Source of the DNA: Fimbriimonadia bacterium | GTDB taxonomy: Bacteria > Armatimonadota > Fimbriimonadia > Fimbriimonadales > JABRVX01 | NCBI GenBank assembly: GCA_039961735.1 | Contig: JABRVX010000012.1 | Coordinates: 62,001 to 126,000 of the forward strand | Length of the DNA stretch: 64,000 bases | Reading direction: 5' to 3' | Made by a program: the position numbers and the translations under genes | The notes under the pieces: generated by a model | Seen by the model: only the letters and a program-made list of their open reading frames with translations | The model's database searches: none | What the model was told of the DNA's origin: nothing | In this document: piece by piece, positions 14,230 to 60,069 of the stretch | Layout of the letters: every line of letters begins with the position of its first letter | Position numbering within the stretch: position 1 is the first letter of the stretch

Positions 14230-15735
14230 ATGACCGTTGCCGAGCATGTGCCTCAGCCCGCTTGGGTCGGTCTGTTGCGGCGAGTGTGGAAGCCGGGTTG
14301 CTGGCTGCCCCTGCTCTCCGCTCTGCTCCTGTTTGCAGCCTATCCGCCGCTGGACCTGGGCTACCTCGCCTGGATTGCACTCGTGCCGCTGCTCTTCGCG
14401 CTTGCGGAAGGCGGCTTCTGGCGCGGGTTCCGGCGTGCGTTGTGGTTCGGCACACTGTTCTTTCTGGGCAACCTGATCTGGCTGCTGCAGTTCATCGCGA
14501 ACTGGATAGGTTCCATCCCGCTGGCGTTTCTCCCCTGGGTGCTTCTCTCCATCATCGAGGGGCTTTACATAGCGCTGTTCGGGGGAGCCGTGGCGCTCGC
14601 GTGCCGGCGGTATGGCTCGCTCGGCCTGATAATTGCGCCGCCTGCGTGGGGGTTCACGGAGTGGTTGCGGTCGAGCTGGCCGGCAGGCGGCTTCGGCTGG
14701 GCGCAATTGAGCTACACGCAGTGGAAGAGCCCGGTGCTGTTGGCTCCCGTGGCAGTGGGGGGCACGCATCTGCTGGCGTTCCTGATCGTGCTGACGGCGG
14801 TCGGTGTGGTCCTCGCGCTGGGCAAGCCGCAGCGCCAGGGCTTGGGGTTCGTGCTGCTCGTGGCCGTCGCTGTAGTACTCGGCACCAGCCAACTGCTGTT
14901 TCTACGAGCCCTGCCAGTCACTGACACGATACGCGTAGCAGCGGCGCAGCCGGCGTTCGATGTCATACATTCGTCGGAGTTCGAGTGGGGTGGCGAGTTC
15001 GAGCAGTGGAAGCAGGACCGGCTAGAGGCGGCCGGACTTGCCGGCGTGCAGGTAGTAGTGTTTCCAGAGAGCTATCAGTTCGCGCCGCCGAGGCCTGAGC
15101 GGCCCCCACCCACCGGCTACATTGCGAGCGGTCACCGCGTGGTGAACGGCAAGGTCTATCACACCGCTTACGGCGCGTCACCCGACGGCACAGTCACCAC
15201 CTACGATAAGTCACGGCTCGTCATCTTCGGCGAGTACGTGCCCTTCCGGGACCGGCTGCCTTTTCTGGACGCCTTCAGACTGCCGGGCGGCGATGTCACC
15301 GCTGCGCCTCCTGGACAACCACTTCGGGTGCGGGGCCTAGACGTGGTGATCGGAATCTGCTTCGAGAACCTCTTCCCAGAGGTGCTTCGGGCGCAAGTGA
15401 GGCAAGGCGCCGACCTAATCGCGGTGCTGTCGCTGGACGATTGGTACCCGCCCGCAGGCATCAACCAGCATGCAGCCGTTGCGGTGGTTCGCGCAGTGGA
15501 GTGCCGTCGCCCGTTGGTTCGGTCGGGCTCGACCGGGGTCACGATGATCGTGAGCGCGCGTGGCGTGGTCTTGGCGAGCCTGCCCATCGGCGTGCGGGAG
15601 ATGGTTATCGCGGATGTCCCTGTCGCGAGCCGAACCGACGTGCCTGGCCGGCTTCACGACTTGTTCCCCTGGCTGTGCCTGATAGGGGTGATAGCTGCGC
15701 TGGCGTGGCGCAAGCGGAAGCCGGCGAAGAACTAA
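14230..15735 (+). CDS. lnt: Apolipoprotein N-acyltransferase
   Basis: 501 aa. About six to seven N-terminal membrane segments are followed by a periplasmic nitrilase-like domain with the expected Glu-Lys-Cys triad: E280 in VVFPESYQF, K327 in TYDKSRLVIFGEYVPF, and C377 in VVIGICFENLFPE. A final TM helix and a basic tail end the protein. The enzyme transfers an acyl chain from phospholipid to the N-terminal Cys of lipoproteins at the inner membrane. This agrees with the lipoprotein genes in this window and with a diderm envelope. It starts 7 bp after the Clp1-like gene. Confidence 0.93.
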   Translation: MTVAEHVPQPAWVGLLRRVWKPGCWLPLLSALLLFAAYPPLDLGYLAWIALVPLLFALAEGGFWRGFRRALWFGTLFFLGNLIWLLQFIANWIGSIPLAFLPWVLLSIIEGLYIALFGGAVALACRRYGSLGLIIAPPAWGFTEWLRSSWPAGGFGWAQLSYTQWKSPVLLAPVAVGGTHLLAFLIVLTAVGVVLALGKPQRQGLGFVLLVAVAVVLGTSQLLFLRALPVTDTIRVAAAQPAFDVIHSSEFEWGGEFEQWKQDRLEAAGLAGVQVVVFPESYQFAPPRPERPPPTGYIASGHRVVNGKVYHTAYGASPDGTVTTYDKSRLVIFGEYVPFRDRLPFLDAFRLPGGDVTAAPPGQPLRVRGLDVVIGICFENLFPEVLRAQVRQGADLIAVLSLDDWYPPAGINQHAAVAVVRAVECRRPLVRSGSTGVTMIVSARGVVLASLPIGVREMVIADVPVASRTDVPGRLHDLFPWLCLIGVIAALAWRKRKPAKN

Positions 15736-17201
15736 GGCGCGACCTCGAAGCGCGTCTCGCCTGGGGAGATTGCTTTTCGGACCTCGCGGCTGCCGAGCCT
15801 AACCACGAGGGTGAAAGAGCAGTCGGACCTGACGGTGAGCTTTGCAGGCGATTTGCGATCCGTACGGGCGGTGCACTCGAGATCCACAGTGCCTTCGCCG
15901 ATCGGGAGGCGGCGTATGCCGTGCTTGACCGTTTGTCGCAAGTTCCAACGCACCTCACCGGCGGGGGCATCCACCTCGATCCCCAAAACCGACTCGATCA
16001 GCACCGCGACCGCGGAGCACACGGAGATGCCTAGTGCGTCCGGGCGAACTCCCTTGGCCGGTCGGAAGGCGTTCGAGGCGTACGCGCCCCAGAGTTGGCC
16101 GGTGCGGACGAAGGTCCTAGATATTCCTTCGAGGTGGTTCTCGGCGGCCAAGAGTGCGACTTCACTCAAGCCTTGCTCCTCGAGACCGCGGATGACTAAG
16201 TAGTTTGCTGTGGGCGACACAGCGCCGAGCCGAGCCGCATCGGCCTGGTACATCGGATCGTCGGCAGGTAGTGTGGAGAAGCTGTGAGGCTGGAGAAAGC
16301 CCTTGCGATCAGTAAGTCGTGCCGCTACCTTCTTCGCTCTGTCTGCGGATGCGATGCCCGCGAACAGAGCATATGCACCTTCGAGCGTGGCCCGCGGGAC
16401 CTGCCTGCCTTCTCGCTCGTAGCTGACATGACGCGAACCCGCATCCACATCGCAGTAGAACCCCTTGTCTTGCGACCAAAGCATCGCATTCACTACGCCC
16501 GCGAGCGCATCGGCTTGCTTGCAGAACCGCTGCTCCTCAGTGCGGTTGTCCAGCACCCGAGCCATCTGGGCGAGACACCGTGCGTTCAACGCCTGCAAGC
16601 ACGTCATCTCCATCGAACCGACCACTCCCTCGCGTGCAGGGCCGAGGCTCCCCTGTCCCGGGCTCAGGGCACCCGTTGGCGTTCGCAGGTTCGTGTCCAG
16701 CCACCAGAAGTGGCGGCTGAGGTATGGGAAGGCGAAGCGCAGGCGGGTACGGTCGGCGGCGACTAGGTAGTACTGCCACTCCGCCCACGCGAGAAGGGGT
16801 GGACACACCTCGGCGAGGTCTGTCGGCGACTTCGCGCTACGGCCGTCCGATTCGAGAATGCCTGCGCTCATGAAGCCGTCCGCATGTTGCTTGCGATAGA
16901 AGTTGTCGAGGGAGATGGCGGTGGGAAATGCCCGGTGGCCGTATCGCCCGCATGCGACCAGGAGCGCTGTCTCGATCTGCCGAACGCGGCCATCGGATGC
17001 CCCCACGTACCGCGAGACCAACCCGTTCGTCTCCGTGCCCTCGCGAATGCCCGACCGATACAGCTCCCATGCCTTCCAGTAGAGCTCTACCCACCGCTCG
17101 CGGCTTTCGATGAACGGCTCCGGCACCAGGCTGCGCCAGTCATCGGCCTGGGCGGGGGAAGCCGCGAGTAGGACGAGGGGCAGCAGAGCGAGAACTGACA
17201 T
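15732..17201 (-). CDS. Exported (alpha/alpha)6-barrel glycoside hydrolase-like protein
   Basis: 489 aa from ATG 17201 (GAGG upstream), with signal peptide MSVLALLPLVLLAASPAQA. The body has features of GH37/GH63/MGH1-like (alpha/alpha)6 barrels: repeated aromatic and acidic helices such as YLSRHFWWLDTNLR, SMEMTCLQALNARCLAQMA and MLWSQDKGFYCDVD, and then a C-terminal beta region. Trehalase or mannosylglycerate hydrolase relatives are possible; the substrate cannot be assigned. The longer frame to 17387 would bury the signal peptide and is rejected. The 3' end overlaps the lnt stop by 4 bp (convergent). Confidence 0.7.
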   Translation of the reverse strand: MSVLALLPLVLLAASPAQADDWRSLVPEPFIESRERWVELYWKAWELYRSGIREGTETNGLVSRYVGASDGRVRQIETALLVACGRYGHRAFPTAISLDNFYRKQHADGFMSAGILESDGRSAKSPTDLAEVCPPLLAWAEWQYYLVAADRTRLRFAFPYLSRHFWWLDTNLRTPTGALSPGQGSLGPAREGVVGSMEMTCLQALNARCLAQMARVLDNRTEEQRFCKQADALAGVVNAMLWSQDKGFYCDVDAGSRHVSYEREGRQVPRATLEGAYALFAGIASADRAKKVAARLTDRKGFLQPHSFSTLPADDPMYQADAARLGAVSPTANYLVIRGLEEQGLSEVALLAAENHLEGISRTFVRTGQLWGAYASNAFRPAKGVRPDALGISVCSAVAVLIESVLGIEVDAPAGEVRWNLRQTVKHGIRRLPIGEGTVDLECTARTDRKSPAKLTVRSDCSFTLVVRLGSREVRKAISPGETRFEVAP

Positions 17202-51669: not shown

Positions 51670-52521
51670 ATGCGCAAAGTGTTTCGAAGCCGCGGGTTCT
51701 CGCGCACGATGCTTGCCATCGGCCTCGTGCTGCTGCTCGGTACCGCAGTCTGCTGGACCAAGGTGTACTTCGACAACCGTGAGCTGTACCGCTTCTCCCA
51801 GCAGTTCTTTCGCCCGGGGATGGACACGGAGGAGTCGCTGAAAGAACTGCTGCACTACGTCGCGGTAGAGTGCAAGCACCCTGTAGATCCAGCGAAAGCT
51901 CACTGGGTGGCCAAGCTGGAGGAACGGCTGCCGCTCAAACTCTCTCCCGTGACGGTCCTGCGCGAAGGTTATGCGTTTCCTGGCACGGAACGCTTCGGTG
52001 AGTGCGGGAGCATGAGCGAACTGATCGGTGCGATCGCGCGGATTCGCGGGATGCCTGTGCGTATGGTGTTGTTGGACGATGCAGCCGCGGGCGGAGAACA
52101 CAAGATGGTATCCGTCTGGCATGATGGCGGTTACCGCCTGTTGGACCCTGCTTTCGATCACTACTGGGTGAACGAGGAGGGACGGATCGCCACCATCGAG
52201 GAGGTCCGTGACAACCCTGAGATCTTCGCGCAGGTGTTCCAGAAGCACGAGCACTACCCATACCGCCTCGACAAGCCGCAGTACTTCCGATGGAGTCGGC
52301 TCGGGCCCATGGAGGGCTTCGCCCGTTCGGTGGTTGGACTGTTCGTGGGGGCCAAGGGGGTCGAGGAGATGGACACGCCGGCGTTCATCGACCGACCGTG
52401 GCTAGGCTACGGATGGGCGTGTCTGTTCATGGCAGTGCCGCCGCTGTTCCTCGGGTGGCTAACCCGTCCTCGCAGGGCCACAAAGCATCCCGAGAGTACG
52501 GACCAGGTGCAGGCTGCCTAG
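51670..52521 (+). CDS. Membrane-tethered transglutaminase-like protein
   Basis: 283 aa with AGGAGG before ATG 51670. TM1 is near the N-terminus (TMLAIGLVLLLGTAVCW) and TM2 near the C-terminus (YGWACLFMAVPPLFLGWL). Between them is a transglutaminase/papain-like core: the Cys in GECGSMSELIGAIARIRG, the His in GEHKMVSVWHDG, and the Asp in YRLLDPAFDHYW, matching the Cys-His-Asp triad order. It could be a periplasmic protease or cross-linking enzyme. Substrate unknown. Confidence 0.75.
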   Translation: MRKVFRSRGFSRTMLAIGLVLLLGTAVCWTKVYFDNRELYRFSQQFFRPGMDTEESLKELLHYVAVECKHPVDPAKAHWVAKLEERLPLKLSPVTVLREGYAFPGTERFGECGSMSELIGAIARIRGMPVRMVLLDDAAAGGEHKMVSVWHDGGYRLLDPAFDHYWVNEEGRIATIEEVRDNPEIFAQVFQKHEHYPYRLDKPQYFRWSRLGPMEGFARSVVGLFVGAKGVEEMDTPAFIDRPWLGYGWACLFMAVPPLFLGWLTRPRRATKHPESTDQVQAA

Positions 52522-53606
52522 TCGCCGATCTGACCGAGGCCGAGAAGGGCGATGCTGAGATCCGGCAGATCCACGATTCCCGAGCCGTCTAGGTCTTCCC
52601 TCACCTGTCCCGTCAGCGCGAACTTCACCAGAACAGCGTTGATGTCGCTGATAGTGATCGTGTTGTCCCCGTCCGAGTCACCATTGGAGAGAACGAAGTC
52701 GGCCTGCGCGGGTGACAAAGGTGCAAGCTGCAGTGGTTGAGAGAGAGCGCTCAGCCAGTGCGAGGCTTTCAGGCGCAGACGATACTCACCGGACAGCGGG
52801 AAGCTCAGTTCGTAGCTGCCATTCGGCCCCAGTGTGGTCCATCCAGAAGATACGACTTGTTGATCGTCGAGCAACCAGTATTCGACATCTACCCCTTCTG
52901 CAGGCTGCAGCCAATTTGATAACGTGACCGACCCACCAACGCGAGAGAACGCCGGAAGGACCACCAGGTAATTGTCCGTCACGTCCACCGTGATTGGTTG
53001 GTAGTCCATCATCCGGGTGGAGAGGCCGGCGGGCGTCTCTCTGCCGTCGAAAAGCCAGTGCAGATCTTGACCTATGCCTTCCGGCTGGACGGTGAAGGTG
53101 AAGAGCGTACGGTTGAAGCTCCAGGACGACGATGCGCTCCCGTTCGCGCCGACCACGAAGTAGAGACCTCGCTCGGCCACGAAGGGTTTGGTGGTGTCGC
53201 CGGGGTCTATGCCGTTATCGTGCATGGGCCCGTAGTCGGGTTGCCAAAATACCTTTAGCGGAAAGTGCCCGCTCGGCGAGAACCCGGCGTTCGCCTGATT
53301 GGCAAAGGTGTTCGCCTCGGCGTCGCTAATAATGCCGATACCGTCCAGCGAGAGCGTGGCCTGCAGAATCGTCCATCGCTCGATATCAGGGTCGTCCGTC
53401 CAGTACGCAAAGCGGATGGACACTTGGTCGCCTGGCTCTGCTGGGAGGGCACCCGGCCCTTCGAGACCCTTGGTCTCGTTGCGGAACCACAGGCGCGCAA
53501 CATAGTCGGCCGCGACGGGTAGGGCCGATAGGAACAAGCAGCCTACACCGATGAGCAGATACCAGGTCCGAGCCGCTGGGGGCCTAGCGCCTCGAGCCGA
53601 TAACAC
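52518..53606 (-). CDS. Secreted protein with dockerin-like tail
   Basis: 362 aa from GTG 53606, giving the signal peptide ARTWYLLIGVGCLFLSALPV before AADYV; the frame is open upstream to 53861 but that part has no SD. The N-terminal beta domain (VSIRFAYWTDDPDIERWTIL) precedes the beta-sandwich module (GGSVTLSNWLQPAEGVDVEY) and dockerin-like loops (NGDSDGDNTITISDINAVLV; DLDGSGIVDLPDLSIALLGL). The 3' end overlaps the transglutaminase-like gene by 4 bp. Confidence 0.78.
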   Translation of the reverse strand: MLSARGARPPAARTWYLLIGVGCLFLSALPVAADYVARLWFRNETKGLEGPGALPAEPGDQVSIRFAYWTDDPDIERWTILQATLSLDGIGIISDAEANTFANQANAGFSPSGHFPLKVFWQPDYGPMHDNGIDPGDTTKPFVAERGLYFVVGANGSASSSWSFNRTLFTFTVQPEGIGQDLHWLFDGRETPAGLSTRMMDYQPITVDVTDNYLVVLPAFSRVGGSVTLSNWLQPAEGVDVEYWLLDDQQVVSSGWTTLGPNGSYELSFPLSGEYRLRLKASHWLSALSQPLQLAPLSPAQADFVLSNGDSDGDNTITISDINAVLVKFALTGQVREDLDGSGIVDLPDLSIALLGLGQIGD

Positions 53607-53892
53607 CTTTCTCCCTTCCCTATGGCAAAACTGCTCCCCTATTCTACAACAGGGATGACGGATGAGCAACGGCAGAGCGCCCCGAATCGCCACATCTAAC
53701 CGATTCTTGACGTAAGACGGGATACTTGGTACAAAGGTCACAACCCTGCGATGCTTGCTTGGCACACATCCCACCCTCTCGACCAAATCCAAGCATCCTC
53801 GGCCACGTGCCGCACTCGGCTGTAGAGTATGTTGCAGGGGAACTGGATGGAGGCTAGCCATCGCGTTGGCATCACGCTAATCGTAACGTAAG

Positions 53893-54000
53893 TAGGGCCC
53901 GGTCTTGCGACCGGACCCTAGATAGTCACCCCGCGATGGGGGGAGTTGCCTGCGGCGAACCTTATTGAAGGGATGGTTCGGGCAGACACCTTTCGGATAC
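53893..54000 (-). ncRNA. tracrRNA of the type II-C CRISPR system
   Basis: Minus-strand RNA, about 108 nt. The 5' part is an anti-repeat (complement of about 53964-54001) matching the array repeat across GGTGTCTGCCCG with one mismatch nearby. Its 3' end is UCCCUUCAAU, followed by AAGGUUCGCCGCAGGCAA; this CAAUAAGG junction is what the Neisseria II-C tracrRNA also shows. A short CCCC/GGGG hairpin (about 53926-53942) comes next. A terminator hairpin at 53894-53919 (AGGGTCCGGTC / GACCGGGCCCT, loop GCAA, one G-U) closes the RNA; it has no obvious U-tract. Ends are predicted from the promoter and hairpin. Confidence 0.85.
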
Positions 54001-54006
54001 ACGAGG

Positions 54007-54035
54007 AGTATACCACACTCCCATAGAAGATGCAA
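54007..54035 (-). promoter_or_regulatory. tracrRNA promoter
   Basis: On the minus strand: -35 TTGCAT (54035-54030), 17-bp spacer, -10 TATACT (54012-54007), giving a start near 54000, just at the anti-repeat. The -35 begins only 11 bp from the cas9 ATG, so the two promoters or transcripts must overlap. Confidence 0.7.
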
Positions 54036-54045
54036 TCTAGCTACC

Positions 54046-57000
54046 ATGAAACGGCTTGGACTCGATCTCGGTACCTCATCTATCGGCTGGGCGTTGCTTG
54101 AAGAGGAAGACGGTAACGCGCGAAAACTCGTCGACTGCGGTGTGCGGATCTTCTCGGAAGTAACTGACCCGCAGAAGCGCGAATCGTTTGTCCCAAAGAA
54201 TAGGGAGCGAAGGCAGAAGCGCGGGATGCGGCGAAATCTGGAACGCCGGGCGGCACGTATACGCACTGCAAGGGACGCGCTAGTCGAAGCAGGGCTGCTG
54301 CCGCTCGACGAAGAGGAACGCAATCGTGTAGTTGACCACTTGGACCCGTACGAGGTGCGTGCTCGCGCCTTGGACGAGAAGCTCTCGCTGCACCAAATCG
54401 GGCGTGCTCTGTTCCACCTCGCCCACCGCCGCGGGTTCAAGAGCAACCGCAAAGCACTGTTCGCAGATCTCCACCACCTCGATCCGCGTGTTCGCGAGTT
54501 CATCGAGAAGCCAGAGACCGACGAGATGGAAGGCCAAGAAGAACTGAGTAAGGAGGAGAAAAAGGAACAGAGCGAGACCCTCAAAGCCATCGCTGAACTC
54601 CGCCAGGAGATCGAGAAGAACGGCTGTCGCACACTGGGCGAGTACCTATATCGTATAAACCATGAGCGCGAACCACATGACCGTCTCCGGGCGCGGGAGC
54701 GCAAGACGGATAGGGCGATGTACGAGGAGGAATTCGAAGCTATCTGGGCGGCGCAGCAACCGCACTATCCTGACCTACTGACCGACGGTTTGAGAGCCAA
54801 GCTGTTTCACGCCATCTTCTTCCAGCGCCCCCTACGCCGACCGTACGTGCTGAAGCGCGTCAAGCTTCCCGACGGGACAGAAAAACTGAAGCTAAAACCA
54901 AAGGGCACGATCGGTCGTTGTCAGTTCGAGCGGCACCATCGAAGGGCGGACCGCGCGCTGCTCCTGTCGCAGGAGTTTCGCATCTGGCAAGACCTCGCAC
55001 ACATCGAAGTGCTAACGGACAACCTGGCGGGCTGGCGCTTTCTGACGCTGGAAGAGCGCAACAAAATCTACGCGGCCCTGCACGGCAAGGAGGAGATAAC
55101 CTGGAAGCAGTTCCGCAAGGTCCTCGGACTCTCCGCGGAAGCACGCATCAACTTCGAGGTGGACGGCGGAAAGAAGAAATTCGCCGGCAACATCACGGAC
55201 GTCCGACTCCGGCGCATTATCGGTGACGAATGGGATGCCTGGCCGAGAGAGCGGAAGGACAAGCTGGTCGAATCGCTCCTCACCATTACGGACAAGGCCG
55301 ACCTCGTCAAGCACCTGCTCGATCACCCGAACTGGCGCTTCGACCCGAAGACAGCGTATCGCTTGGCCATCCTCCAACTCCCTGGCGGCGTGATGAGCCT
55401 GAGCGCCCGCGCGATGGACCGCATCCTTTATGGACCGAAGCCGAAGGGTGGCGGCGACCGCATCCCAGGCTACGGGCTCATAAACGGGCAGAACTATCAC
55501 GACGCTTGCCAGGCCGCGGGCTACCTACGCGCCGACCAGATCAGCCAACACCTGCTCAGTCGGCTTCCGAAACCCGAGCTTACGCGCAACCCCGTCGTGG
55601 ACCACGCTCTGCACCAGGTGCGCAAGCTCGTCAACGCCATCATCCGAGAGTATGGTCGGCCAGACGCGGCCACCATCGAAATGGCACGCGACATGAAGCT
55701 GAACCGCGAGCAACGGGAACGCATCTTGCGAGAGAACCGAGAGAACCGAGAGCAACGCGATTGGGCGGTGGAGAAAGCCAAGGAGCTGGGTATCGAAGAA
55801 CCTAGCAGCGACCAGATTCTCTGGCTGCGTTTGCTCAAGGAGTGCAACTACACCTGTCCCTACACCGGCAAGTCCATCACCGAGAGGTCGCTACTCACAG
55901 GCGACTTCGAGGTAGAACACATCATCCCCTACAGCCGCTGCCTGGACGACTCGTACATGAACAAGACCCTCTGCGACACGCAGTTCAACCGGCATGTCAA
56001 GAGAAACAAGACGCCGTACGAGTTGTTCTCGAGCGACGAGCAGAGGTACGGCGAGGTGAAGCTGCGCATTCAGTGCCTGCCCAAGCCGAAGCAGAAAAAG
56101 TTCGAACAAATCGAGATTGACACCGAACAGTTCGTGTCTCGCCAGCTCAATGACACGCGCTACATCTGCCGCGCAACGAAGGACTACTTGAAGCAAGTGA
56201 TCCCGGAAGTGGACGTGTCGCGCGGAGGCGCGACCGCCGCACTGCGCCACGTGTGGGGGCTCAACGGCATGCTGCCCGCGCCACCTCCCGACAGCGAGAA
56301 AGCAAAGGCGGAGAAGCGCACCGATCATCGCCACCACGCCATAGACGCCGTAGTCATCGCCTGCACCACGCGCAGCCTGCTGAAGCGCCTCTCGGACATC
56401 ACCGCCAAGGGTGGCAGCCTCACGCTTCGCCAGACGGTGGACGACGAGCGACTGAAGTTCCCTCCTCCATGGCCGACGCTGCGTGACGACGTGAAGAAGG
56501 CACTGGACACAATGGTGGTCTCCTTCGCGCCGACCAGGAAGCTATTCGGAGGCCTACACGAGGAAGGCATCTATGGCGTGCATATGGACGGCGACCGGCC
56601 GATGTATCACATCCGCAAGCGGCTGGAAGACCTCAGCGCTGGGCAAATCGAAGACATTCGGGACCCCGAGCTGCGGAAGCAGGTGAAGGAGCGCGTGACA
56701 GCGGCGGGCGGCGACCTGAAAAAGGCGTTTGCAGAATCGCCCACCTACAAGCGTACGCGTGTCAGGCGGGCGCGCATATGCGTCGCACGCGAACCGAAGG
56801 CCACCGTCCAGCTCCCACACGGCCACGCATTCCTCGGCAGCTACCACCATGTGGAGATCCTGGAATGCCTGAGGGCACATCAGGACGAGGAGGGGAAGAA
56901 GTGGAAGGTGGGGCAGCGAAAGGGCGTGTTCGTCTCGATGCTGGAAGCCGCCGAGCGCGCGCACGGGAAGCCGAGCAAGGGTATCCCGAAGCGGCCGATT

Positions 57001-57255
57001 GTTCAGCGTGACCACGGCCCGGACTGGCGCTTCGTCATGAGCCTGAGCCAGGGAGACTTAGTGCGGATGGACGAGGACGAGAAGCTGTATCGAGTGCAGA
57101 AATTCGGGGCCACAGCGGCGCGGGCGGTCTTCAGGGAAGCGACGCTCGCCGGGCCAGACGAGAAGTGGGGCCTCCTTCAGCAAGCGATCAACGTCCTGCG
57201 CTGCACGAAGGTCAACACCGACCTACTGGGCCGAGTGTTCCCGGCCAACGATTAA
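54046..57255 (+). CDS. cas9: Cas9 endonuclease, compact type II-C
   Basis: 1069 aa from ATG 54046 (an in-frame extension to 53965 lies inside the tracrRNA region and is rejected; no clear SD). RuvC-I GLDLGTSSIGWALLE with catalytic D7; Arg-rich bridge helix about 55-85 (RRQKRGMRRNLERRAARIR); RuvC-II ATIEMARDMK with E545; HNH about 600-660 with FEVEHIIPYSRCLDD (H625) and an Asn in QFNRHVKRN; RuvC-III DHRHHAIDAVVIA with H764 and D767. A ~300-residue C-terminal domain would read the PAM. The length and the absence of csn2/cas4 give subtype II-C. It cleaves DNA matching crRNA spacers with tracrRNA help. All catalytic residues look intact. Confidence 0.95.
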   Translation: MKRLGLDLGTSSIGWALLEEEDGNARKLVDCGVRIFSEVTDPQKRESFVPKNRERRQKRGMRRNLERRAARIRTARDALVEAGLLPLDEEERNRVVDHLDPYEVRARALDEKLSLHQIGRALFHLAHRRGFKSNRKALFADLHHLDPRVREFIEKPETDEMEGQEELSKEEKKEQSETLKAIAELRQEIEKNGCRTLGEYLYRINHEREPHDRLRARERKTDRAMYEEEFEAIWAAQQPHYPDLLTDGLRAKLFHAIFFQRPLRRPYVLKRVKLPDGTEKLKLKPKGTIGRCQFERHHRRADRALLLSQEFRIWQDLAHIEVLTDNLAGWRFLTLEERNKIYAALHGKEEITWKQFRKVLGLSAEARINFEVDGGKKKFAGNITDVRLRRIIGDEWDAWPRERKDKLVESLLTITDKADLVKHLLDHPNWRFDPKTAYRLAILQLPGGVMSLSARAMDRILYGPKPKGGGDRIPGYGLINGQNYHDACQAAGYLRADQISQHLLSRLPKPELTRNPVVDHALHQVRKLVNAIIREYGRPDAATIEMARDMKLNREQRERILRENRENREQRDWAVEKAKELGIEEPSSDQILWLRLLKECNYTCPYTGKSITERSLLTGDFEVEHIIPYSRCLDDSYMNKTLCDTQFNRHVKRNKTPYELFSSDEQRYGEVKLRIQCLPKPKQKKFEQIEIDTEQFVSRQLNDTRYICRATKDYLKQVIPEVDVSRGGATAALRHVWGLNGMLPAPPPDSEKAKAEKRTDHRHHAIDAVVIACTTRSLLKRLSDITAKGGSLTLRQTVDDERLKFPPPWPTLRDDVKKALDTMVVSFAPTRKLFGGLHEEGIYGVHMDGDRPMYHIRKRLEDLSAGQIEDIRDPELRKQVKERVTAAGGDLKKAFAESPTYKRTRVRRARICVAREPKATVQLPHGHAFLGSYHHVEILECLRAHQDEEGKKWKVGQRKGVFVSMLEAAERAHGKPSKGIPKRPIVQRDHGPDWRFVMSLSQGDLVRMDEDEKLYRVQKFGATAARAVFREATLAGPDEKWGLLQQAINVLRCTKVNTDLLGRVFPAND

Positions 57256-57321: not shown

Positions 57322-58257
57322 GTGCAGGCAAGAGTGGTGGATATCGGCTGCCCGGCCAGCATCCGGGCGAAGTGGAAGCTCCTCGTCGTGGAGCCACAGG
57401 ACGGCGAGGAGCAGTCCGTGCCGCTGGAGGATCTCGGCGTCCTCATTCTGGACGACCCGCACATCCGCATTTCCAAGCACGCGCTCGGGCTGCTCGCCGA
57501 GTCCAACGTCGCAACGGTAGTGTGCGACGAAAAGCACATGCCTATCGGGCTGCTGCTGCCGTTCGAAGGCAACGCCCTGCACACGCAGATCCTGCGCCGC
57601 CAGATCGAAGTGAAACTGCCTCGCAAGAAGCGCGCCTGGCAAGCGCTAGTTCAAGCGAAGATCAGAAACCAGGCCGAAGTGGTCCGACGCCGGGGCGGTA
57701 AAGCCGGCAAGCTCGCCCGTTTGGCGAACGAAGTGCGCAGTGGCGACCCGGAGAACCTGGAAGGCATTGCGGCCGGGATGTACTTCAAGGCGCTGTGCGG
57801 CGACGAGTTCGTTCGCGAGCGGGGGGTAGGAGGTTTCAACGCGCTTCTGAACTACGGCTACGCCGTGCTTCGGGCGGCCTGCGCTCGTGCAATCGTCGGC
57901 ACCGGCCTGCATCCGGCGCTGGGCGTCCACCACATGCATCGGAACAACCCCTTCTGTCTCGCCGACGACGTGATGGAGCCCATCCGACCGCTCGTGGACT
58001 GGGTGGCCCTGGAGGCCGGGGAGGACATGGCCGACGACGCGGAGCTGACCCCAGCGCTCAAGCGACACATGCTGGGCATCACGCTGCGGCAACTGAAGGT
58101 CGGTCGCAAGCGTTACCCCCTGACGGTGGGACTTGGGATGTACGCTGCAGCCTTTCGCGATTATCTATTCGGACAGATCCGCAAACTGGAAGTGCCGATG
58201 CCCGAACTGGACCCCGATTCCATCGGGGCCGATTCTACGGAGGAAGACGAGGAGTGA
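57322..58257 (+). CDS. cas1: Cas1 integrase
   Basis: 311 aa from GTG 57322 (no strong SD), 66 bp after cas9. The catalytic metal-binding residues fit Cas1: E147 in NLEGIAAGMYF, the His cluster LGVHHMHRNNPF (about 203-206), and E219 in LADDVMEPIRPLVD. With Cas2 it captures and integrates new spacers. The C-terminal tail is acidic (DPDSIGADSTEEDEE). It is part of the cas9-cas1-cas2 operon; the stop overlaps the cas2 start. Confidence 0.93.
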   Translation: MQARVVDIGCPASIRAKWKLLVVEPQDGEEQSVPLEDLGVLILDDPHIRISKHALGLLAESNVATVVCDEKHMPIGLLLPFEGNALHTQILRRQIEVKLPRKKRAWQALVQAKIRNQAEVVRRRGGKAGKLARLANEVRSGDPENLEGIAAGMYFKALCGDEFVRERGVGGFNALLNYGYAVLRAACARAIVGTGLHPALGVHHMHRNNPFCLADDVMEPIRPLVDWVALEAGEDMADDAELTPALKRHMLGITLRQLKVGRKRYPLTVGLGMYAAAFRDYLFGQIRKLEVPMPELDPDSIGADSTEEDEE

Positions 58258-58598
58258 TCTTCGGAGGGTACCGAAGCGTGTGGCTTCTTACGATGTTCGA
58301 TCTTCCCGTACTCACGAAGCAGCAACGGAAGGAATACGCGAAGTTCCGGAAGTTCCTGCTCGGCGATGGCTACATCTTCATGCAATACAGCGTGTACGGA
58401 CGGCACTGCCCGAGCGAGGAGCGGGCCGAGGTTCACATCGGGCGGCTACGCGCCCATTTGCCGCCCCAGGGCGAGGTTCGGGTGCTGAAGTTTACGGACA
58501 AGCAGTTCGAGCGGATGCTGCGGTTCTACGGACCGATGAAAAAAAAGCCCGAGAAACCGCCCGAACAGCTCACTCTATTCGAAATTTCGACCTCTTAA
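58254..58598 (+). CDS. cas2: Cas2
   Basis: 114 aa from GTG 58254, overlapping the cas1 stop (GTGA), with GGAGGAAGACGAG upstream. Typical Cas2 sequence of type II systems: YRSVWLLTMFDLPVLTKQQR (the conserved Asp in FDLP), KFLLGDGYIFMQYSVYGRHC, LKFTDKQFERMLRFYG and the C-terminal QLTLF. It dimerises and bridges Cas1 dimers in the adaptation complex. It is the last gene before the array, 33 bp away. A longer frame in the same phase starts inside cas1 and is not real. Confidence 0.93.
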   Translation: MIFGGYRSVWLLTMFDLPVLTKQQRKEYAKFRKFLLGDGYIFMQYSVYGRHCPSEERAEVHIGRLRAHLPPQGEVRVLKFTDKQFERMLRFYGPMKKKPEKPPEQLTLFEISTS

Positions 58599-58605
58599 CA
58601 ACACT

Positions 58606-58635
58606 CAATCTCCTCGGCTAACGCCGAGGAGATTG
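58606..58635 (-). terminator. Hairpin at the cas2-array junction
   Basis: Perfect 13-bp stem CAATCTCCTCGGC / GCCGAGGAGATTG, loop TAAC. The right arm reaches four bases into the first repeat. Read in the crRNA direction it would terminate pre-crRNA; read the other way it would end the cas operon. Confidence 0.7.
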
Positions 58636-59987
58636 TATCCGATAGGTGTCTGCCCGGTCCCCCCAACTTAGCGTTGCAGATGCTGAAACATGACAGTATT
58701 GTATCCGATAGGTGTCTGCCCGGTCCCCCCAACCTGAAATTCGACGGGTTATTCCTGGAAGCTATTGTATCCGATAGGTGTCTGCCCGGTCCCCCCAACA
58801 TTCGATGTGGTGATCGAACCCGAACGGATATTGTATCCGATAGGTGTCTGCCCGGTCCCCCCAACGGGTGATGCGATTGGCGACGACCGACACCTATTGT
58901 ATCCGATAGGTGTCTGCCCGGTCCCCCCAACCCACGCTGGATAGAGGATGGAGACATAGGTATTGTATCCGATAGGTGTCTGCCCGGTCCCCCCAACTCG
59001 GTAGGGTCAGCTCCGATTACATATCGGATTGTATCCGATAGGTGTCTGCCCGGTCCCCCCAACTAGCTTCTTTTGGTACTGCGTCGCCGCCCTATTGTAT
59101 CCGATAGGTGTCTGCCCGGTCCCCCCAACTGCGCCATCGCTGTGGATAATATCATCGCGATTGTATCCGATAGGTGTCTGCCCGGTCCCCCCAACACAAA
59201 AAGCTGAAACCAGCCGTTCGATGTAATTGTATCCGATAGGTGTCTGCCCGGTCCCCCCAACTGCTAATCAATCCCGTCCTCCACGCCTCAGATTGTATCC
59301 GATAGGTGTCTGCCCGGTCCCCCCAACTGCGACCCGCCGCTCCCGGAAGCGGAGGTAATTGTATCCGATAGGTGTCTGCCCGGTCCCGCCAACGATTGCG
59401 CGCGCCGTCTCATCCAGATACATATTGTATCCGATAGGTGTCTGCCCGGTCCCCCCAACTCCCACAACCACCGAGCGAGTTCGAGTCGTATTGTATCCGA
59501 TAGGTGTCTGCCCGGTCCCCCCAACGTCCACTCCGCCTACCTTACGTATCACCGTATTGTATCCGATAGGTGTCTGCCCGGTCCCCCCAACGGCCTTAAG
59601 GTCAATGTGGATATCAACCTCATTGTATCCGATAGGTGTCTGCCCGGTCCCCCCAACCTGGAGCTGCGGCCATAGTTCGCGATCGTCATTGTATCCGATA
59701 GGTGTCTGCCCGGTCCCCCCAACAGGGATGTCGTCGGAGTCGCTCGACACAGGATTGTATCCGATAGGTGTCTGCCCGGTCCCCCCAACTGCAGTGCTCT
59801 TCATTCCGCGTGCTCGACTATTGTATCCGATAGGTGTCTGCCCGGTCCCCCCAACAAGGACGGGCCAGCGCTCGTGAAGGCGCTGATTGTATCCGATAGG
59901 TGTCTGCCCGGTCCCCCCAACCGAGGGCAGGTGATTGGCAGCAACGGTGAGATTGTATCCGATAGGTGTCTGCCCGGTCCCCCCAAC
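58632..59987 (-). CRISPR. CRISPR array, 21 repeats of 36 bp, 20 spacers of 30 bp
   Basis: Repeats begin every 66 bp exactly (58632, 58698, ... 59952). On the plus strand each starts ATTGTATCCGATAGGTGTCT and ends CCCAAC; on the minus strand each starts GTTGGGGGGACC and ends GGATACAAT, as in II-C repeats (GTTG...ACAAT). All copies are identical except the one at 59358 (C to G at 59388). All 20 spacers are 30 bp and different. Minus-strand transcription is inferred from tracrRNA pairing. No AT-rich leader is seen on either side. Because 66 is a multiple of 3, long false frames run through the array. Confidence 0.97.
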
Positions 59988-59993
59988 CAAGCG

Positions 59994-60069
59994 GCCAGCC
60001 TCGCCTAGAGGGGCACCTTCGCGACGTCCAGTAGCAGAGACCGTCTGTGCCCCTCTAGGCGAGGCTGGC
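59994..60069. repeat. Perfect 23-bp inverted repeat beside the array
   Basis: Arms 59994-60016 and 60047-60069 (left arm begins GCCAGCCTCGCCTAGAGGGG) are exact complements around a 30-bp loop. It starts 6 bp after the last repeat and ends 27 bp before the ahcY stop. It could be the ahcY terminator, a leader element or a remnant mobile element. Confidence 0.9.

Follow-up and report, generated by a model that had tools for sequence, protein, structure and literature searches.

A type II-C CRISPR-Cas9 locus of a Fimbriimonadia bacterium with a probable tracrRNA anti-repeat divergent from cas9

In known systems, RNase III is the host RNase that trims the duplex of crRNA repeat and tracrRNA. In one survey, 79.2% of tracrRNAs were located upstream of the effector gene and 69.8% lay in reverse orientation (PMC10278012). 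The array of the II-C locus of Clostridium cellulolyticum is read against the cas genes and its repeats have a -10-like end, and a promoter within each repeat has been reported for Neisseria (PMC7038990). The median energy of the II-C repeat:tracrRNA duplex was -31 kcal/mol in a further survey (PMC12080349).

Genes and array of the locus

The window, a stretch of 64,000 nucleotides from a Fimbriimonadia bacterium (GCA_039961735.1, contig JABRVX010000012.1, positions 62,001 to 126,000), contained a locus in the order cas9-cas1-cas2-array. The cas9 gene (54046-57255, plus) is a single open frame of 1069 aa, and its product matched TIGR01865 (665.8 bits), HNH_4 and RuvC_III, all above the cut-offs; the match to the Cas9 family model was the single one in the whole genome. 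It is followed by cas1 (57322-58257, plus) of the type II (NMENI) family, with 254.3 bits to TIGR03639 and a PADLOC match to Cas1_II, and by cas2 (58254-58598, plus; TIGR01573, 64.5 bits; PADLOC Cas2_II). Neither csn2 nor cas4 was found at the locus: of four flanking frames compared with NCBIfam, the one past the array is ahcY and the remaining three had no family match. Judged from these sequences, the locus is assigned to type II by its predicted Cas9 with HNH and RuvC domains and by a putative tracrRNA anti-repeat pairing with the repeat, and to type II-C by the presence of cas9, cas1 and cas2 alone. Nothing at the locus departs from the II-C kind.

The CRISPR array (58632-59987; probable crRNA strand minus, GUUGGGGGGACCGGGCAGACACCUAUCGGAUACAAU) contains 21 repeats, each 36 nt long, separated by 20 spacers that are all exactly 30 nt in length. 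Twenty repeats are identical and one, at 59358, carries a single change. On the minus strand the repeat begins with GUUGGGG, and each of the 21 terminates in the -10-like TACAAT; by inspection, 10 of the 11 loci scored for promoters had TAYAMT at the 3' end of the repeat. A comparison of the whole array with phages, and of the initial 22 bases (plus strand) of five spacers with viral contigs, yielded no spacer target, and thus no PAM was available as a check on orientation. We considered the high-coordinate end as the leader and rejected this, since new spacers enter II-C arrays at the last repeat, which makes this end the upstream and oldest one (PMC12080349, PMC13187072).

On its upstream side the first crRNA-sense repeat is preceded, at a distance of 6 nt, by a perfect inverted repeat (59994-60069, minus) with 22-nt arms at 59994-60015 and 60048-60069, and these arms are unique in the genome. 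II-C arrays with an upstream hairpin that acts against extraneous crRNA have been described, and the strong hairpin of this inverted repeat is by analogy a candidate for the same role, although the first repeat of the window's array is unmutated whereas 60% of the extra repeats in that survey were mutated (PMC12080349). In two relatives strong hairpins likewise abut the first repeat. Located just after ahcY, the inverted repeat could instead serve that gene. On the cas2 side, at which II-C arrays take up spacers, the last crRNA-sense repeat shares its end with a 13-bp hairpin (58606-58635), and hairpins close after the array were also observed in five relatives.

The anti-repeat and the predicted tracrRNA

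The first-pass annotation had proposed a tracrRNA-like anti-repeat at 53964-54001 that pairs with the minus-strand repeat, and our results agreed with this. The segment 53964-54000 (minus) is complementary to the 36-nt repeat, and the computed energy of the duplex on the minus strand was -54.3 kcal/mol, which is stronger than the survey median of -31 kcal/mol (PMC12080349), the two values coming from different methods. In the 23-nt core of the anti-repeat, 21 of 23 positions match the complement of the repeat, compared with 17 for the runner-up in the window, and the chance expectation for such a match in the window is about 2e-5. Across the genome (3.24 Mb, 77 contigs), a 22-nt core was found at 22 places: 21 belong to the array, and the sole one outside it, with one mismatch, is the anti-repeat. 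A distance of 46 nt separates the anti-repeat from the start of cas9, from which it is divergent.

The duplex begins with a lower stem of 10 bp, formed by UCCCUUCAAU (53964-53973, minus) with GUUGGGGGGA at the start of the repeat, followed by an asymmetric loop of unpaired AACCA (53974-53978, minus) opposite one C. The annotation had drawn this internal loop as CC versus about GAACCA; the loop exists and is reduced to the smaller form when a possible C-G pair is counted. The long upper stem it described is also present, with GGUGUCUGCCCG (53979-53990, minus) forming 12 bp, and beyond AAA opposite UAU (53991-53993, minus; U-A, an A.A mismatch, U-A) it continues for a further 7 bp that the drawing had omitted, between GUAUCCG (53994-54000, minus) and CGGAUAC of the repeat. 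Three G-U pairs were found in the lower stem, as claimed, at repeat positions 1, 5 and 6, so that a single one, not all three, touches the spacer. They had been called unusual, a view that does not hold among the relatives: the first eight pairs of 11 loci contained 24 G-U against 0 A-C, with 1-3 G-U per locus, most often at pairs 1, 5 and 6. Three such pairs are therefore ordinary in this family. The ending of the anti-repeat that the annotation had likened to Neisseria is a YAAYAAG-like end common to the relatives.

Sequence and an element order shared with the relatives predict a tracrRNA gene of about 110 nt (53893-54001, minus) in which the anti-repeat is followed by CAAUAAG (53961-53967, minus), a short first hairpin, GCAGGC, a second hairpin with the C-run UCCCCCC (53938-53944, minus), and a 12-bp end hairpin. 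This last hairpin (53893-53920, minus) is GC-rich with a GCAA loop and occupies the place at which the relatives have an intrinsic terminator; its U-tract in the window is poor (CUUACGUU). From a promoter-like TTGCAT-17 nt-TATACT (54007-54035, minus), transcription of the tracrRNA would begin near 54000. This element is a moderate match (8 of 12 positions, shuffle p 0.043), and most relatives have stronger matches at the same place. A stricter scan of the window for promoters and terminators found neither. A search of Rfam at both thresholds matched no tracrRNA family, which does not speak against II-C membership, and MAFFT aligned the tracrRNA tails too raggedly for a covariance model to be built on them. 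Taken together with the comparisons given below, we hold it very probable that 53964-54000 on the minus strand is the anti-repeat of the tracrRNA in a complete type II-C CRISPR-Cas9 system whose crRNAs derive from the minus strand.

The first hairpin of the window's tracrRNA (GG-UUCG-CC) is unusually short. A frame of 447 aa (52518-53861, minus) adjoins the tracrRNA gene; it matched no NCBIfam family, and by eye its end resembles a dockerin-type repeat (DSDGDNTITISDINAVL, DLDGSGIVDLPDLSIAL).

In most loci the first tracrRNA hairpin is immediately followed by GCAGG or GUAGG, the complement of CCUGC-like letters midway along the anti-repeat; in the window the proposed helix is GUCUGC with GCAGGC. 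As a tentative and rather doubtful suggestion, this conserved element may pair with those letters in imitation of the repeat, so that the free tracrRNA would be shut or pseudoknotted until displaced by the crRNA. Two permutation tests on 13 loci gave p 0.004 and 0.014, and a test that took a narrower segment in 23 loci gave p 0.14, in which the helix nevertheless exceeded shuffled segments (-11.2 against -9.0, sd 0.6). We treat this helix as a lead only.

Strand of the array and pairing of the lower stem

The annotation had held that the duplex fixes the orientation of the array and that the opposite orientation does not give it. The latter was overstated, because the plus-strand repeat with the plus-strand segment still gave -51.8 kcal/mol against -54.3 kcal/mol for the minus strand; both pairings are strong since Watson-Crick pairs survive on either strand. 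A clear difference was confined to the lower stem, which alone gave -12.4 kcal/mol on the minus strand and -6.4 kcal/mol on the plus strand. The call of the minus strand is nevertheless very probably correct, as the relatives indicated, although the duplex by itself was insufficient for it.

For the comparison, Cas9 loci of relatives were fetched, their arrays were read, and anti-repeats were sought by a strand-neutral search that scored both kinds of transition alike, an anti-repeat counting as significant at z > 4 and no more than 450 nt from the start of cas9. A significant anti-repeat was found in 21 of the 25 loci with an array (the window and 20 others); none was found in the remaining 4, three of which are among the most distant. 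Among departures from Watson-Crick pairing, G-U is allowed on the tracrRNA strand and A-C on the other. Over repeat positions 1-10 the 21 loci contained 30 G-U, 3 A-C and 4 other departures, and over the whole repeat 44 G-U, 17 A-C and 21 other. Sign tests of G-U against A-C gave p 1.4e-6 and 7e-4, respectively, for loci that are related and hence not independent; by locus, 16 had more G-U and 2 had more A-C. Upstream of the anti-repeat, the sigma-70-like promoter score was 9.9 on the tracrRNA strand versus 5.1 on the other and was higher in 10 of 11 loci. Downstream, a hairpin followed by a T-rich stretch was present in all 13 tails on the tracrRNA strand, the weak one of the window included, and in 2 on the other strand. 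The pairing was also cognate: in 11 loci the repeat with its own anti-repeat averaged -51.7 kcal/mol versus -25.7 kcal/mol with those of others, and 0 of 20000 permutations were as good.

The case for the minus-strand orientation thus comes from the comparison with relatives, through the excess of G-U pairs, the promoters and the terminators, and not from the duplex alone. As a point of method, the strand is settled by an excess of G-U over A-C in related loci, and not by the strength of the repeat:anti-repeat duplex alone. The direction of tracrRNAs has been decided likewise from structure and termination signals (PMC7606464). Transcription of both array and tracrRNA from the plus strand, with the tracrRNA running towards cas9, is very improbable: the near equality of the two duplexes in the window would favor it, but the lower stem on that strand is weak, the relatives show the opposite pattern of departures, and their promoters and terminators lie on the tracrRNA strand. 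Moreover, a plus-strand RNA would enter the cas9 frame within 46 nt, and the minus-strand repeats start with GTT, a 5' motif used elsewhere to predict direction (PMC10278012). The parts of the locus, their complementarity and the comparative evidence on orientation are shown here.

The co-folding check proposed by the annotation gave a divided answer on the lower stem. With 134 nt of the tracrRNA, repeat positions 1-8 paired mostly with the C-run 53938-53944 (P 0.91), and the stem as drawn reached 0.09. When the 3' end of the window's tracrRNA was varied, the drawn, canonical stem was favored at most other ends: P was about 0.9 (up to 0.92) when the C-run was absent and 0.65-0.77 with 3' ends at 80-110 nt, while it was about 0 when the C-run was present with its hairpin incomplete and 0.08 at 125 nt. 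The two pairings are close in energy, with a difference within model error. A true pairing of the G-run of the repeat with the C-run would mean a rearranged lower stem and another job for the UCCCUUCAAU segment. The full-length co-fold speaks for it, but the stem with GUUGGGGGGA prevails with 3' ends at 80-110 nt or when the C-run is absent, 10 of the 10 relatives tested fold in the canonical way, and the lower-stem letters and the YAAYAAG-like motif after them are conserved in the relatives. Since the C-run result hinges on an assumed 3' end, and given the relatives and this conservation, we retained the canonical stem and give the rearrangement very little credence.

That the segment 53964-54000 is a decayed stray repeat with no tracrRNA gene, as its partial match to the repeat and the unmatched Rfam tracrRNA families might suggest, is barely credible against the cognate anti-repeats at the same place beside cas9 in 20 further loci, the downstream hairpins and upstream promoters in the loci examined for them, and the mostly pair-preserving departures of the lower stem from the repeat. 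In one relative, L033, more repeat-like copies were observed outside the detected array (14761-14820, 15471-15530 and 16351-16410), two of which outmatch the anti-repeat beside cas9; they are probably degenerate repeats or a second array.

Proposed function and comparison with known systems

By analogy with known II-C systems, from which transcription, processing and cleavage are inferred, the tracrRNA would start at about 54000, upstream of and divergent from cas9, and run to the hairpin 53893-53920, and the array would be read from the minus strand, probably starting at the promoter element with which every repeat ends. The repeat of each crRNA would then form a duplex with the anti-repeat, which a host RNase may trim, and with this crRNA:tracrRNA pair Cas9 would cut matching DNA. 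The predicted tracrRNA resembles what we take to be the II-C tracrRNA of Neisseria meningitidis, in which the anti-repeat is followed by CAAUAAGG; the Neisseria repeat presumably differs from GUUGGGG of the window. The repeat of one relative, L071, starts with GTTGTAGCTCCC.

In open-access literature on Armatimonadetes with Cas9, no title concerned a type II system among the titles and abstract openings covered. A Cas9 match (E <= 1e-20) was found in 31 of the 291 Armatimonadota genomes searched, the one analysed here included. The locus adds what is, by its predicted parts, a complete type II-C Cas9 system from Armatimonadota, with predicted boundaries of the tracrRNA and a predicted direction of the array. 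Among solved structures, the best sequence matches of its Cas9, over the HNH and RuvC regions, were the II-C enzyme GeoCas9 (8UZA, 8UZB) and other Cas9 proteins (9ar4, 8jtj), all of them distant, with phmmer aligning separate stretches that cover less than the full length. The predicted layout of the locus is the commonest one by the survey of tracrRNA positions (PMC10278012). Compared by layout alone, this predicted arrangement is like that of the CcCas9 locus of Clostridium cellulolyticum, which has the tracrRNA upstream of the cas genes, the array running against them and an extended -10-like end of the repeat (PMC7038990).
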